The position numbers and the translations under genes are program-made. This document shows positions 40,119-45,617 of a DNA stretch of 64,000 bases, piece after piece. A model generated the notes under the pieces. The model was given only the letters and a program-made list of their open reading frames with translations, searched no databases and had not been told where the DNA came from. This DNA is from Halorubrum sp. PV6. GTDB taxonomy: Archaea; Halobacteriota; Halobacteria; Halobacteriales; Haloferacaceae. Position 1 is the first letter of the stretch. Each line of letters starts with the position of its first letter. The DNA is taken from positions 186,001 to 250,000 of the forward strand of contig NZ_CP030064.1 in assembly GCF_003990725.2 (NCBI RefSeq). The letters run 5' to 3'.

Positions 40119-40874
40119 TCAGTCGGCCGCCGTCGGCTCGGCTCCCGGCTCGGCCGCTCCCTGTCTCGTTTCTTCCCCCGCTTCGTCCCCGGCCGATCCG
40201 GTCGAGGAGTCGCCGTCGACGAGCAGCGTCTCGACGTTCGCGAAGACGAAGCCCGCGAAGCCGACCCGAAGGAGGAGATCGAGGTACTCCAGCGTCACCG
40301 TCGCGGTGAACTGATCGAGCAGCCCGGCAATCTGTATCATCGCCCACGCGATCAACACGCCGAACGCGAAAAGCGAGAGATTCCGCGTCTTCGCGTAAAA
40401 CAGCGCCCTGTCCGGCGGCTGGCGCGACGCCGCGCCCGCGATGGGGCCGAAGAACAGCCCGAGCAGGACCACGTACCCGACGAGGATGGCGCCGGTGCCC
40501 GCCAGCGCGAGCGACCCCTCGAACACCTCGGCGAAGTCGTACCCGAGCCGCATCACCACGGTGAGCCCCATCACGCCCGCGATGTAGCGCCGACTCGCCC
40601 CGGCGACGAGGGCCGCGAAGCCGAACAAGAACGGGTACGCCGCGTAGTCGGTCACCAACTGTCCGCCGTCCAGCGTGCCGCTGCCGACGGCTATCGTCCC
40701 GATGCCGGCCGCCCACATCCCCACGCCGAGACCCGACACCGCGACGACCGCGACGAACGGGTAGCAGTACCGACGCAGTTCCGCGGGCTTGCGCGCCGCG
40801 AGCGCGAAGAGCACCACGGCGGAGAGCGCGTAGACGCCCGCCGAGACGAACCGCACCGTCGACGGCTCAATCAT
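40119..40874 (-). CDS. Opsin-fold (sensory rhodopsin-like) protein lacking the retinal lysine
   Basis: 251 residues with seven hydrophobic helices and a short hydrophilic tail after residue 220. By-eye alignment to Natronomonas sensory rhodopsin II needs almost no gaps. RRYxxxxVxxxSG in helix B, TVVM in helix D, GPxxxxAS before helix F, (L/K)xRNL at 162-166 and YLDLxxxVGF at 197-206 all match. At the position of the Schiff-base lysine stands Arg203 (codon CGG, 40266-40268). The counterion Asp75 is Thr75, Arg72 is Gln72, and pocket residues Trp76, Trp171, Tyr174 and Pro175 are Asp, Phe, Leu and Ile. Covalent retinal binding should therefore be impossible. Tyr197 and Asp199, which match the transducer-facing part of helix G, are kept. 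It overlaps the transducer gene by 8 bases. Confidence 0.85.
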   Translation of the reverse strand: MIEPSTVRFVSAGVYALSAVVLFALAARKPAELRRYCYPFVAVVAVSGLGVGMWAAGIGTIAVGSGTLDGGQLVTDYAAYPFLFGFAALVAGASRRYIAGVMGLTVVMRLGYDFAEVFEGSLALAGTGAILVGYVVLLGLFFGPIAGAASRQPPDRALFYAKTRNLSLFAFGVLIAWAMIQIAGLLDQFTATVTLEYLDLLLRVGFAGFVFANVETLLVDGDSSTGSAGDEAGEETRQGAAEPGAEPTAAD

Positions 40875-42471
40875 CGGCGCTCACCTCCGTCTCGCCGGCG
40901 ACGCGGTCCGCTGGCGCGTCGGCGCTCGCCGCCGGCCTCCCCGTCTGCCTCGCCGCCGACTCCGCGTCGGTCCGCGTCTCGAACTGGTCGAGCCGGTCGG
41001 TGAGCGACCCGGTCCGCTCCGCGAGGGAGGTCGCCGTCGTCGCCATGTCGCCGACGGTCTCGGCGGTCGCGTCCGCGGTCTCGGCGAGCGACCGAGCGCG
41101 GCTCGCGGCGTCGGTGGCGGAGGTGTGTACGGCCTCGACGCGCGCGGCGACCGACTCGATCCCCTCGGCGCCCTCGTCGGTCGCGCGGGCGATGTCCGCC
41201 ATCGCCACGTCGACGTCCTCGACCGTGCCCGTCAGTTCCTCTATCGCGTCGCCCGCGGCCCGGACCGCGGCGGTCGTCTCGTCTAACTCGGTCATCGTTC
41301 GGTCCATCTCACCCGCCACCGCCGACACGTCGTCCGTGACCTCGCCGACCGTCGCCTCGATCTCGGTCGTCGACTCGCGCGTCTCCTCGGCGAGCCCCTT
41401 CACCTCGTCGGCGACGACGGCGAACCCGTCGCCGTCGCCCCCGGCGCGGGACGCCTCGATCGAGGCGTTGAGCGCGAGGATGTTCGTCTGTTCGGCGATG
41501 TCGGCGATCACGTCCGTCGTCTCCGCGACCCCGTCCATCCGGTCGTCGAGGCCCGCGACGAGCCCGTCGAGGTCGTCGAGGAGGTCGCCGATCGCGACGA
41601 TCGCCTCGACCGCCTCCGTCGCGCGGCGCTCGCCCTCCGTGCCGAGTTCGGCCGCGGCGGTCGCGTCGCCGGCCACCTCGTCGGTCGTGGAGGCGATCTC
41701 CTCGATGGTCGCCGAGAAGTCGTCGGTGTCGGCGGCCGTCTCCCGCAGACGGTCCGTCTGTTCGTCCAACTCGTCGGCCAACGCCCGCATCTCGTCGGCG
41801 ACTTCCTGGTTCATCTCGGCGACGTCGTCGGCGCGGGTCGCCATCTCCTCGCTCGTCGACTCCACGTCGGCCGCGAACGACTGGATGTCGTCGACCGTCG
41901 TCGAGAGCCCGTCGGTCATCTCGTTGTACGCCGCCGTGATCCGTTCTATCGCATCGACGTCCGTCTCCGCCGGCAGCCGGTGCGTGAAGTCGCCCTCGGC
42001 CGCCCGCTCCATGGCGCCGCCGATGTCCTCGGCGCGCTCTAAGAGGGTGTCGGACAGCGCCTCGGCCTCCTCGCGGGCCGCCTCCGCGTCCGCCTGCGCC
42101 CGGTCGGACTCCGCGACCGCGTCGCGAAGGGACCGCCGCGTCTCGTCGAAGGCGGCGAACAGCCGGCCGATCTCGTCGCGCCGGTCGGAGGTCGCTCGGG
42201 CGTCGAACTCGCCGCGGCCGACCGCCTCGGCCGTCTCCGTCAGCCGCCGCAACTCGACCGCGACGTTCCCGATCAAGACGATTCCTAACAGGCCGAGATT
42301 GAGCGTGACGACGACGCCCGTGGCGGTCAGCGCCGCCGTCGCGGCAGCCGGAGTTCCGACGGTCGCCACGTGCGCCGCGAAGAGGGCGATGAATCCGAGC
42401 GTCGCGGCGAGCGTCGCGAGGACGGCCACCCCCACCCGGCGACCGTACCGCGCAGCGATGAGGTTCAACAT
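40867..42471 (-). CDS. Two-helix Htr-type methyl-accepting chemotaxis transducer
   Basis: 534 residues from ATG at 42469-42471; the open frame extends to 42630 but the upstream part is low-complexity and lies across the promoter. TM1 is at about 13-37 and TM2 at about 44-71, with only a few residues between them, so there is no extracellular ligand domain. A HAMP-like linker follows (VELRRLTETAEAVGRGEFDARATSDRRDEIGRLFAAFDE), then a second HAMP-like segment and long helices. The CheA/CheW-binding tip is IAEQTNILALNASIEASRAGG...FAVVADEVKGLAEET (about 320-365). This architecture is that of HtrII-type partners of sensory rhodopsins. It is followed with 8-base overlap by the opsin-like gene. Confidence 0.9.
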   Translation of the reverse strand: MLNLIAARYGRRVGVAVLATLAATLGFIALFAAHVATVGTPAAATAALTATGVVVTLNLGLLGIVLIGNVAVELRRLTETAEAVGRGEFDARATSDRRDEIGRLFAAFDETRRSLRDAVAESDRAQADAEAAREEAEALSDTLLERAEDIGGAMERAAEGDFTHRLPAETDVDAIERITAAYNEMTDGLSTTVDDIQSFAADVESTSEEMATRADDVAEMNQEVADEMRALADELDEQTDRLRETAADTDDFSATIEEIASTTDEVAGDATAAAELGTEGERRATEAVEAIVAIGDLLDDLDGLVAGLDDRMDGVAETTDVIADIAEQTNILALNASIEASRAGGDGDGFAVVADEVKGLAEETRESTTEIEATVGEVTDDVSAVAGEMDRTMTELDETTAAVRAAGDAIEELTGTVEDVDVAMADIARATDEGAEGIESVAARVEAVHTSATDAASRARSLAETADATAETVGDMATTATSLAERTGSLTDRLDQFETRTDAESAARQTGRPAASADAPADRVAGETEVSADD

Positions 42472-42501
42472 TGGTGCTACGCGGAGAGACCCGGACGCCC
42501 T

Positions 42502-42511
42502 ACTTATGAAT
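42502..42511 (-). promoter_or_regulatory. TATA-like element of the transducer-opsin operon
   Basis: ATTCATAAGT on the minus strand is centred about 35 bases before the transducer ATG. It would give a leader of a few bases and supports the start at 42471. Confidence 0.45.
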
Positions 42512-42518
42512 GAAGACG

Positions 42519-42540
42519 AAATTATCCGGTTCGATAATTT
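42519..42540. promoter_or_regulatory. Perfect inverted repeat AAATTATC-N6-GATAATTT upstream of the transducer-opsin operon
   Basis: Two 8-base arms match perfectly around a CGGTTC spacer. It is AT-rich in a very GC-rich region and lies just upstream of the TATA-like element. The position suits an activator (or a repressor of the divergent thioesterase gene, whose ATG is 99 bases away). Confidence 0.6.
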
Positions 42541-42638: not shown

Positions 42639-43088
42639 ATGCCGTCCGTCAGCGACACCTACATCGAGAACCGCCAGCGCGTCCAGCCGACCCACACCAA
42701 CAACTACGAGTCGGCGCACGGGGGTAACGTCGTCAAGTGGATGGACGAAATCGGCGCGATGTCGGCGATGCGCGCCGCGGGCGAGACCTGTGTCACGGCC
42801 AAGATCAACGCGCTCGACTTCAAACGGCCGGTGCCACAGGGCGACACCTGCATCGTCGAGTCGTACGTGTACGCGGTCGGGCGGACCAGCCTCCGGACGC
42901 GGATCCGGGCGTACCGCGAGTCGCCCCGCACGGGCGAGCGGGAGCTGACGACGGAGTCGTACTTCGTGTTCGTCGCCGTCGACGCCGACGGGAAGCCGAC
43001 GCCGGTCCCCTCGCTTGAGGTCGCCGGCGACCGCTGTCGCGAACTGCGCGAGGAGGCGCTCGCGGCCGAACCGGACGCGGAGCGCTGA
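42639..43088 (+). CDS. Acyl-CoA thioesterase, hotdog fold
   Basis: 149 residues from ATG 42639; the frame is open upstream, but the family N-terminus MPSVSDTYIENRQRVQPTHTNNYESAHGGNVVKWMDE begins here. The NxxxxxHGGNVVKWMDEIGAMSAMRAA segment carries the catalytic Asn/His/Asp pattern of YciA/BACH-type acyl-CoA hydrolases. It is followed by VTAKINALDFKRPVPQGD and the central strand VESYVYAVGRTSLRTRIRAYRE. It likely hydrolyses medium or long acyl-CoA. Substrate not deducible. Confidence 0.9.
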   Translation: MPSVSDTYIENRQRVQPTHTNNYESAHGGNVVKWMDEIGAMSAMRAAGETCVTAKINALDFKRPVPQGDTCIVESYVYAVGRTSLRTRIRAYRESPRTGERELTTESYFVFVAVDADGKPTPVPSLEVAGDRCRELREEALAAEPDAER

Positions 43089-43112
43089 GCGCCGCCAGCG
43101 ACTCCCCGGCGC

Positions 43113-43943
43113 TCAGTAGTCGCCGAGGACGCCGAGCCGACGCGCCCGCCGCGTCGCGTACTGGAAGACGACGTAGCCGCCGAGGAGGTACCCGACCGCG
43201 ACGGCGACGAGCAGCCCGAGGTCTGCGAGGGGGAACTCCCACAGCCGGACGCCGTCGACCATCGCGCGCTGGAGCATCGCGCTCCCGTGGGCTAAGGGGA
43301 GGAACCGCGTCCACGGCGCGTCGAGGACGGGCGCCGAAATCAGCGCGACGAACCCGAACTGCAACAGGTTCAGCCAGTTGCCGATCCGCTTATAAAGCAC
43401 GGTCACGCCGCCGGCCGCGAAGCCGAGGCCGAGCACCGACGTGATCGCGAGGCCGGCGACGGCGACCACCGTGATCGGGTCGAGACTCAGCCGGGTTCCG
43501 GTGAGAAGCAGCATGACGGCGAGCACGACCGCCGAGGTGAGGAACGTCCGGACGACCTTCGCGACGCCTTTTAAAAGGGCGACCGGCGCGAACCCGAACG
43601 GCGTGGTGATGTGCCGCTCTAAGGTCCCCCACTGCACCTCGCTGCCGATGTCGCTCGACACCGACGAGTAGGCGCCGACAGACAGCGTCCACAGGAAGTA
43701 GCCGGCGATGATCCCCTCGAGCGAGTCCGTGAGCGCCTGCCCGGCCAGCAGCCGCCCGCCGTAAAAGAGCACGCCGAAGAAGAACAGCGCGATGACGATC
43801 CCCCCGATCGCGTTCGCGGGATACCGGACGAAGATCAGGTACTCCCGGTAGAGGACGGCCCGCGCGAGGTGGTAGTAGGTCGCCGGCCGCGGCTCGTCGT
43901 CGTCGCCGGTCCCGACCGGCGCGCGCTCCGTCTCACCCGTCAC
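43113..43943 (-). CDS. ABC-2 type transporter permease
   Basis: 276 residues with six hydrophobic helices and the ABC-2 layout. The N-terminal YREYLIFVRYPANAIGGIVIALFFFGVLFYGG helix is followed by GAYSSVSSDIGSEVQWGTLERHITTPFGFAPVALLKGVAKVV, the cytoplasmic coupling segment typical of this superfamily. It is an export or lipid/drug transporter subunit. It overlaps the ATPase gene by 4 bases. Substrate unknown. Confidence 0.88.
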   Translation of the reverse strand: MTGETERAPVGTGDDDEPRPATYYHLARAVLYREYLIFVRYPANAIGGIVIALFFFGVLFYGGRLLAGQALTDSLEGIIAGYFLWTLSVGAYSSVSSDIGSEVQWGTLERHITTPFGFAPVALLKGVAKVVRTFLTSAVVLAVMLLLTGTRLSLDPITVVAVAGLAITSVLGLGFAAGGVTVLYKRIGNWLNLLQFGFVALISAPVLDAPWTRFLPLAHGSAMLQRAMVDGVRLWEFPLADLGLLVAVAVGYLLGGYVVFQYATRRARRLGVLGDY

Positions 43944-45097
43944 GGGGACCGCCCTCCCGGCTCTCCGCCCGACTCTCCGTTCAGCCCCACGGCCGACTCC
44001 CCGCCCGGCTCCATGCCCGTGAGGTCGACGAACACGTCCTCCAGCTCGGGGCGCACCGTCTCGATGTCCTCCACCGTGACGCCCGCCTCGCGGAGGGCGT
44101 CCATCAGGTCGTACAGGGCCTCGCCCGCGGCGGCGACCTCCACACTGGTGGGATCGCCCGCGTCGGGGCCGGAGTCGACCGCCCGCACGTCGAACCGCTC
44201 GCGGAGGGTCGCGATCACCGCCTCGTCGATGTCGGCGCTCGCGATCCGGAGCGTGTCCCGCTCGGTCCCGGCGAGGAGCGCCCCGACGGTGTCGTCGGCG
44301 ACGATCCGACCGCCGGCCATCATCACGACGCGGTCACAGACGTCTTCGATGACGGCCATGTCGTGGCTGCTGAGCACGATGGTGAGCCCCTCCTCGCGGG
44401 CGAGCCGCCGGAGTTCGCGGCGGAGCGTCCGGGAGCTCTCGACGTCGAGCCCGAGCGTCGGCTCGTCGAGGAAGACGAGCGACGCGCCGCCCGCGAGCAC
44501 GCTCGCTAACGACACCTTCTGTTTCATCCCCCGCGAGAGCTCTCGAACCGGCGTGTCGGCCTTCTCGGTGAGTTCGAGCCGGTCGAGCAGGCGGTCGTGT
44601 CTCGCCCGCACCGAGTCCGGGTCGACGCCGGCGATGGTCGCGAAGTACCGCAGGTTCTCGCGGACGGTGAGCCGCCAGTAGTCGTTGCGCGCGCCCTCCA
44701 ACATCGCGTCCACGTCGGCGTACGCCGCTCGGCGGCCGTCGCTCACGTCCCTGCCGAACACCCGGACCGAGCCGGCGTCGGGGAGGACGATACCGAGTGC
44801 GCATTTAATAAGGGTGGTCTTGCCGGCCCCGTTCGGGCCGAGCAGCCCGACGATAGCGCCCTGCTCGACGCTCAGGCTCACATCGTCGACCGCCAGCACG
44901 CCGCCGTCGCCCGCGCCGAACCGCTTCGTGACGCCCGATACCGCCAGCGCCGGCGGCGACGAACCGCTCGGCTCGCCGTCCCCGGCGCCCTCGCTCCGGG
45001 AGCCTCCGGGTCGGCGTCCGTCTCGTCGGGACGCGTCGCGCTCGTCGCCGTCGCGCTCGTGGGGGTCGCCGCGTTCGCTCGCCGCGCTCTCTGCCAT
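43940..45097 (-). CDS. ABC-2 type transporter ATP-binding protein
   Basis: 385 residues from ATG at 45095-45097; the longer frame to 45241 runs through the promoter. An acidic linker of about 45 residues is followed by the ATPase: GLLGPNGAGKTTLIKC (Walker A), ELSRGMKQKVSLASVL (signature), SLVFLDEPTLGLD (Walker B) and SSHDMAVIEDVCD (H-loop). A C-terminal regulatory domain of the DrrA/NatA type ends in RPELEDVFVDLTG. It pairs with the permease at 43113. Confidence 0.92.
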   Translation of the reverse strand: MAESAASERGDPHERDGDERDASRRDGRRPGGSRSEGAGDGEPSGSSPPALAVSGVTKRFGAGDGGVLAVDDVSLSVEQGAIVGLLGPNGAGKTTLIKCALGIVLPDAGSVRVFGRDVSDGRRAAYADVDAMLEGARNDYWRLTVRENLRYFATIAGVDPDSVRARHDRLLDRLELTEKADTPVRELSRGMKQKVSLASVLAGGASLVFLDEPTLGLDVESSRTLRRELRRLAREEGLTIVLSSHDMAVIEDVCDRVVMMAGGRIVADDTVGALLAGTERDTLRIASADIDEAVIATLRERFDVRAVDSGPDAGDPTSVEVAAAGEALYDLMDALREAGVTVEDIETVRPELEDVFVDLTGMEPGGESAVGLNGESGGEPGGRSP

Positions 45098-45120
45098 CGC
45101 CCACGCTACGAGCCGAGCGC

Positions 45121-45130
45121 GGATATATCC
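45121..45130. promoter_or_regulatory. Palindromic TATA box shared by two divergent genes
   Basis: GGATATATCC is its own reverse complement. Its centre (45125.5) is 28 bases from the ATPase ATG (45097) and 28 bases from the ATG at 45153. One symmetric element could thus direct leaderless transcripts both ways. Confidence 0.6.
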
Positions 45131-45152
45131 GCGTCCGGCGGGTACGATCGCC

Positions 45153-45617
45153 ATGGATCTGGACCGGTTCGCCGCGGACGTACCGGCCGACGACGCGCCC
45201 GGCGACGCGCGGGTCTGCGTCGTGGCGACGCGGCCAGACACCTTCGAGCGCTGTCGCGAGGGGTTCTACCCCGCGCCGCGGTCGTACGACCGGACCCGCG
45301 CCGACTTCGAGTACGTGGCCTTCTACCGGACCGCGCCGGTGTCGGCGGTCACCCACTACGCCCGCGTCACGGCCCGCACGGAGCAGACGCGCGGCGAGCG
45401 CGGCCCGATGGACGAGGCGGACTGGGCGGCGCTCATCGACCCCTTCTCCGAGGAACGCGTCGTCGTCGTCTTCGAGTTCGCGACCCTCGTCCCGCTCGAC
45501 AGACCGGTCGAGAACGACCTGCACGGCGTGCGCGGCGCGTGGTACTGCACGGTCGCGGACCTCCGCGAGGCGGCGACGCTCTCGGGGCTGCGCGACCGCG
45601 CCGGCGCGGGCGGCTGA
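45153..45617 (+). CDS. Conserved haloarchaeal protein, 154 residues
   Basis: An alpha/beta protein beginning MDLDRFAADVPADDAPGDARVCVVATRPDTFERCREGFYPA. Later segments are FEYVAFYRTAPVSAVTHYARV, a conserved VVVFEFATLVPLDRPVEN and GAWYCTVADLREAATLSGL. These suggest a compact beta barrel of the kind seen in PUA/ASCH-like or restriction-linked EVE domains, but I cannot confirm a family. The start is fixed by the shared TATA box 28 bases upstream. Function unknown. Confidence 0.65.
   Translation: MDLDRFAADVPADDAPGDARVCVVATRPDTFERCREGFYPAPRSYDRTRADFEYVAFYRTAPVSAVTHYARVTARTEQTRGERGPMDEADWAALIDPFSEERVVVVFEFATLVPLDRPVENDLHGVRGAWYCTVADLREAATLSGLRDRAGAGG

Follow-up and report, generated by a model that had tools for sequence, protein, structure and literature searches.

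A group A opsin-related protein and its taxis transducer in Halorubrum: a probable receptor for a stimulus other than light

Type 1 opsins are generally seen as light devices. The opsin fold without the retinal lysine is also found in fungal opsin-related proteins and in eukaryotic Rh-noK, for which we know of no transducer partner. The fungal proteins differ from their haloarchaeal counterparts in that their lysine was lost independently (PMC4915679). In haloarchaea, Becker et al. described in 2016 a set of 48 opsin-related proteins (ORPs) lacking the retinal lysine (PMC4915679). Their group A, which stems mainly from Halorubrum, carries Arg at the lysine site together with Asp76 and Leu174, and a HAMP/MCP gene lies beside 15 of 16 members. 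A group A ORP was found to be transcribed in Hrr. distributum, the ORP protein was not detected by LC-MS/MS of native cells, and the purified Hrr. distributum ORP displayed no band at 480-580 nm with retinal. The authors proposed taxis to a non-light stimulus and left an alternative chromophore possible. The second system suited for comparison is the SRII-HtrII pair of Natronomonas pharaonis, in which Tyr199 of the receptor forms a polar contact with Asn74 of the transducer (PMC6798134). In SRII, disruption of the salt bridge between the Schiff base and Asp73 leads to constitutive signalling (Spudich 1997, as listed by title in PMC5292967).

The locus analysed here is located in a stretch of 64,000 nucleotides from Halorubrum sp. 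PV6, referred to as the window. It comprises a transducer gene and an opsin-like gene, both on the minus strand (Table 1), which display the architecture and order of a sensory rhodopsin-Htr pair, as had been recognized in a preliminary description of the DNA. Overlapping or abutting genes are found in most relatives as well, and the overlap in the window is likely to couple translation of transducer and opsin. The transducer, whose length was counted from a conserved MLN start, shows all features of the HtrII type: two transmembrane (TM) helices, a HAMP domain (Pfam, E=1.3e-12), an MCP signalling domain (MCPsignal, E=1.4e-38) and the contact residue corresponding to Asn74. Its TM and HAMP region matches HtrII with E=2.1e-12. 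In the AlphaFold2 model, helices 11-38 and 41-85 are connected by an extracellular turn of 2 residues, which is shorter than in HtrII of N. pharaonis and agrees with the earlier reading of two helices with almost no extracellular loop. Neither the Pfam search nor the model revealed a further sensory domain in the transducer.

The opsin-like protein was matched by no Pfam family, even with E values of up to 10 admitted, and by nothing in NCBIfam; phmmer searches of the PDB and AlphaFold2 modelling with Foldseek were therefore applied. It is also absent from the PF01036 matches of the host genome. In the PDB, phmmer retrieved an SRI-type rhodopsin-transducer construct with E=6e-9, and SRII with E=9e-8. 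The AlphaFold2 model, calculated from 76 sequences, has a mean pLDDT of 91.3 and a pTM of 0.83, and its top Foldseek matches are structures of the SRII/HtrII complex (E=1.6e-8; query TM 0.78, target TM 0.87). In combination, these values demonstrate that the homology to SRII is not a matter of chance.

The alignment confirms a numbering nearly identical to that of Natronomonas SRII and places Arg203, encoded by CGG, at the position of the Schiff-base lysine (K205 in SRII, R203 here). The only lysines of the protein, Lys29 and Lys162, are both situated outside helix G, which thus contains no alternative lysine for retinal. As previously noted from the sequence, the surroundings of the missing chromophore are altered at positions 72 (Arg to Gln), 75 (Asp to Thr), 76 (Trp to Asp), 171 (Trp to Phe), 174 (Tyr to Leu) and 175 (Pro to Ile). 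In addition, Trp178 is replaced by Ala, and Tyr199 and Asp201 correspond to Tyr197 and Asp199. Of the aromatic residues lining the pocket, those at W76, Y174, W178 and F127 are gone. The protein shares fold, gene pairing, transducer architecture and the Tyr199-Asn74 contact residues with the SRII-HtrII pair of N. pharaonis, but possesses neither the helix G lysine nor the conserved pocket aromatics of a sensory rhodopsin, and Thr75-Asp76 takes the place of Asp75-Trp76.

Table 1. Positions within the window of the two genes, of selected codons and of neighbouring elements.
Feature	Position	Strand	Remark
Taxis transducer (HAMP + MCP signalling domain, 534 aa)	40867..42471	-	HtrII-like, 2 TM helices
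Group A opsin-related protein (251 aa, seven TM helices)	40119..40874	-	Arg203 replaces retinal lysine
8 bp shared by transducer end and opsin start	40867..40874	-	Coordinates of both genes
Arg203 codon CGG, SRII Lys205 (Schiff-base) site	40266..40268	-	Alignment to SRII
Codons of Thr75 and Asp76 (acidic 75/76 site), putative ion-pair partner of Arg203	40647..40652	-	Covariation with Arg
Tyr197 codon, SRII Tyr199, transducer contact residue	40284..40286	-	Invariant in 129 ORPs; PMC6798134
Transducer Asn58 codon, NpHtrII Asn74, partner of SRII Tyr199	42298..42300	-	Asn/His in 67/67 ORP-paired transducers
Transducer His34 codon, NpHtrII Glu43 position, faces opsin Asp187 (SRII Thr189)	42370..42372	-	
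Promoter palindrome AAATTATCGAACCGGATAATTT, CsmR-box-like	42519..42540	-	TATC-N6-GATA core at 42523-42536
TATA-like element TTCATAAGTA	42501..42510	-	Downstream of box; from sequence
Putative thioesterase and ABC-transporter genes flanking the pair	42641-45241		Named from sequence

Arg203, W76D, Y174L, W178A, Met108 and the adjacent HAMP/MCP gene are the hallmarks of group A, and in the tree the window protein is located within the ORP clade next to the sensory opsins, on the group A branch. Identity to the Halorubrum members is mostly 69-76%, and 57-62% to three of them. The group A proteins of Becker et al. likewise combine Arg at the lysine site with W76D, Y174L, W178A, M108 and T/S127, and share the adjacent HAMP/MCP gene as well as nearby thioesterase and ABC-transporter genes, which are named in the legend of the context figure; no essential difference is apparent (PMC4915679). 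The window pair is one more ortholog of the class reported in 2016, and the earlier assumption that a lysine-less opsin paired with a transducer had not been characterised has to be withdrawn, as exactly this class is treated there. Four points go beyond the excerpted text of that report (PMC4915679): covariation of the Arg with an acid, Asn or His at transducer position 74, the promoter box and the occurrence of group A far outside Halorubrum. To our knowledge, the link between Arg and acid, the conservation of both sides of the interface and the promoter box are additions.

The group B ORPs of Natrialba and its relatives are also retinal-free, keep Tyr199 and often adjoin a transducer. However, they differ from group A by a hydrophobic residue at the lysine site, by Gly75-Tyr76, and by retaining Arg72 and Tyr51. 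A further ORP (L227, genome G332) displays His at the lysine site combined with Ala75-Tyr76. Arg at this site is also found in a separate ORP clade, which keeps Arg72, Asp/Glu75 and Tyr174 (L117, L125, L127, L131 and L132; opsins L189-L195, L197-L199, L201, L203-L206, L208 and L209, with the exception of L196). The transducers neighbouring L117, L125, L127, L131 and L132 are about 770 aa long and possess a large extracellular domain; in the transducer of L132, a stretch of 407 aa including part of this domain matched only HAMP in Pfam. The excerpts of Becker et al. make no mention of the Arg in this clade (PMC4915679).

A strong match (E < 1e-20) to the opsin-like protein is present in 26 of 52 Halorubrum species, with one copy frameshifted and one truncated. 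Across the order, 392 genomes were surveyed, and group A turned up at 36 additional loci in 33 genomes belonging to five families. In a tree of 90 opsins, group A forms a clade (n=55) with a support of 100/99, and ORPs are separated from the Lys opsins with 100/100. Pairwise identities within group A go down to 22%, with a median of 37%. Arg occupies the lysine site in 54 of the 55 proteins, the remaining one having Ser, and a transducer gene adjoins in 52 cases, one of the three exceptions lying at a contig end. Together with Tyr80, the Arg belongs to the pocket sites that are conserved in 54-55 of 55 proteins. Among Halorubrum orthologs the median dN/dS is 0.27, corresponding to purifying selection. 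Absence of both the pair and the Arg from all relatives, which the preliminary description had named as the sign of a one-off decay, was not observed; both are widely conserved across five families.

Decay of a former sensory rhodopsin that is losing its function might be suspected from the loss of all retinal residues and from the frameshifted (G022) and truncated (G033/L019) copies. Already disfavoured, it is very improbable in view of the near-fixation of Arg over a long divergence, the dN/dS value, the pair being intact in 52 of 55 cases and the transcription of orthologs (PMC4915679). The broken opsin-related gene copies in a few Halorubrum genomes (L013 8541-8849 / L138, L139 (G022), L019/L140) comprise a second partial copy, besides the frameshift and the truncation. 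The sole group A protein without Arg (L112, genome G329) combines its Ser with Ser-Gln at positions 75/76 and is situated on a long branch, with its transducer kept.

Within Halorubrum, a survey of retinal genes is uninformative, since nearly all species (49 of 52) carry a PF15461 gene for brp/blh-type retinal synthesis; canonical rhodopsins are present in 50 of 52, and the host of the window has three. Outside the genus the survey is informative: five near-complete genomes with the pair (G144, G303, G233, G180 and G363) contain neither a PF15461 gene nor a canonical rhodopsin, and the PF01036 matches of G363 are exclusively the ORPs themselves. In general, therefore, neither retinal made by the host nor a partner rhodopsin is likely to serve for sensing light. 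This also bears on the idea that the protein is still a photoreceptor, in which non-covalently bound retinal or another chromophore, for instance a carotenoid, drives the same switch. Such a function would agree with the opsin fold, with the retinal and rhodopsin genes of the Halorubrum hosts, and with the alternative chromophore left possible by Becker et al., but is quite improbable given these five genomes, the loss of the four pocket aromatics and the missing 480-580 nm band of the purified Hrr. distributum ORP (PMC4915679).

The contact between receptor and transducer was compared across 129 ORPs, all of which possess Tyr199. At HtrII position 74, the 52 group A transducers carry Asn (39) or His (13), and the same two residues occur in all 15 other ORP-paired transducers; in 8 canonical transducers of the same order this position is Gly. 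At the level of sequence, the ORP/transducer pairs thus conserve the SRII-HtrII contact in receptor and transducer alike. Of the YLDL segment, which had been described as facing the transducer and being kept, this applies to the tyrosine (Y199), whereas D201 corresponds to the second counterion, which group A does not retain as a rule. A second SRII-HtrII contact was considered as well: opsin position 189 and transducer position 43 (SRII/HtrII numbering) are Asp and His in 32 of 52 pairs, and Thr and Asp in 5 pairs of one clade. Although Fisher's test gives p=5e-4, the seemingly compensatory covariation at Asp189/His43 can be traced to a single clade and does not hold up when independent pairs are compared; it was therefore not taken as proof.

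A conserved interface could equally be expected if the ORP were an accessory subunit without input of its own, serving just to stabilise the transducer or to enter the SRII-HtrII array of the host, and the host of the window indeed has an SRII-like receptor adjoining its own transducer (L142). This role is rather improbable, as the ORP also occurs in hosts without a canonical rhodopsin, as Arg and Tyr80 are conserved at pocket sites with no obvious scaffolding role, and as the transducer lacks any further input domain. Most likely, the pair is a non-light taxis receptor with the ORP as its input. The conserved pair and Arg, the interface and the retinal-gene-free hosts support the earlier proposal that the opsin fold is the dedicated input of the transducer for something other than covalently bound retinal.

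Asp or Glu is present at position 75 or 76 in 75 of the 76 ORPs with Arg, but in none of the 53 without it; the exception (L111) displays Asn-Asn at 75/76. At the control position 201 the acid does not follow the Arg. In ORPs without Arg, position 205 varies between Leu, Val, Phe and Ile, in contrast to the fixed Arg. The Arg-acid states require only three changes on the tree, i.e. 2-3 independent contrasts, of which 3/3 agree (2/2 on well-supported branches of a larger tree), and due to this small number the covariation does not reach significance by sign test (p 0.25-0.5). The pattern points to an Arg-Asp pair having taken the place of the protonated Schiff base and its counterion, with the acid disappearing when the Arg does. 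To regard the counterion region as lost, as the earlier T/Q reading of D75/R72 implies, is too strong: the acid has been shifted to, or spread over, positions 75/76, where it tracks the Arg across the family. Since SRII becomes constitutive when its Schiff base-Asp73 salt bridge is broken, it is plausible that control is exerted at a retained ion pair.

We infer a physical complex in which the ORP would bind the transducer in the geometry of SRII-HtrII and would represent its only input. The stimulus would be other than light; covalent retinal and the retinal pocket are lost. Arg203 at the lysine site of helix G would form a salt bridge with an acidic residue of helix C where the counterion resides (Asp76 in this protein, Asp/Glu75 or Asp76 in others), thereby preserving the interhelical charge pair that holds SRII in its resting state. 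The stimulus would make or break this ion pair, and helices F and G may then tilt as in SRII; the likeliest stimulus is a small ligand, perhaps anionic or polar, that enters the vacated cavity, with pH, ions or membrane potential as alternatives. The helix motion could be transmitted to TM2 of the transducer through the Tyr197-Asn58 contact and would finally alter HAMP, CheA and archaellum switching.

The nature of the stimulus is the point at which a physical sensor has to be weighed, i.e. a buried Arg-Asp pair that reads pH, salt or ion concentration, membrane potential or tension. The postulated Arg-Asp pair can be titrated and would sit in the membrane, and Arg and acid change together. 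Ligand and physical input would share one readout, and the present data do not separate the two. However, the residues surrounding the pocket are variable, which is easier to reconcile with ligand specificities that diverge than with a single physical cue common to all, so that a physical sensor is somewhat unlikely and a small-molecule ligand is favoured. Tentatively, a light switch may have been converted into a chemical switch, with Arg substituting for the protonated Schiff base, the acid partner kept, and a ligand controlling the ion pair in the old retinal pocket.

Upstream of the pair, a TATC-N6-GATA core begins 65 nt before the transducer ATG and precedes a TATA-like element, in line with the arrangement expected of a box for CsmR, a motility regulator of Haloferax volcanii with the site consensus TATCA(N4)TGATA, reported in 2026 (PMC13286277). 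The host genome contains 24 such sites compared to 2 of the reversed pattern, and sites or degenerate forms of them precede other transducer genes, cheF, a pilin gene and a prepilin-peptidase gene. In total, 11 MCP genes as well as CheW/CheA-type matches are present in this genome. Counts of TATC/GATA matches in the 110-nt upstream regions are weak for most single orthologs, and the argument for a CsmR-like box rests on its position (about 57-67 nt upstream) and on the genome-wide excess. The box and the sites at motility genes make the pair look like a member of the motility regulon, and suggest that a CsmR-like regulon exists in Halorubrum. Box-marked loci are window 42519-42540 and L157-L166, L176, L180 and L182.

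In conclusion, we assign a probability of roughly 0.7 to the reading that the pair constitutes a motility-regulated two-gene taxis receptor, in which the ORP would form an SRII-HtrII-like complex with its transducer, act as its sole input and respond to a non-light stimulus via an Arg-acid switch. Family, fold, pairing and taxis role can be assigned with high confidence, and it is probable that the opsin is a dedicated non-light input operating through an interhelical charge pair.

If this holds true, a large and widespread retinal-free, transducer-tied branch would show how a photoreceptor was turned into a chemoreceptor or physical sensor while keeping its output machinery. Were the trigger indeed a ligand, the rhodopsin-transducer machine would be otherwise unchanged, and the result would be a prokaryotic counterpart of ligand-gated GPCRs that is made from a type 1 opsin. 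For the ORP class described in 2016, specific residues and a regulatory context are now provided by the Arg-acid pairing, by the conserved interface and by the motility-type promoter, which makes the question of the stimulus testable in genetically tractable haloarchaea.
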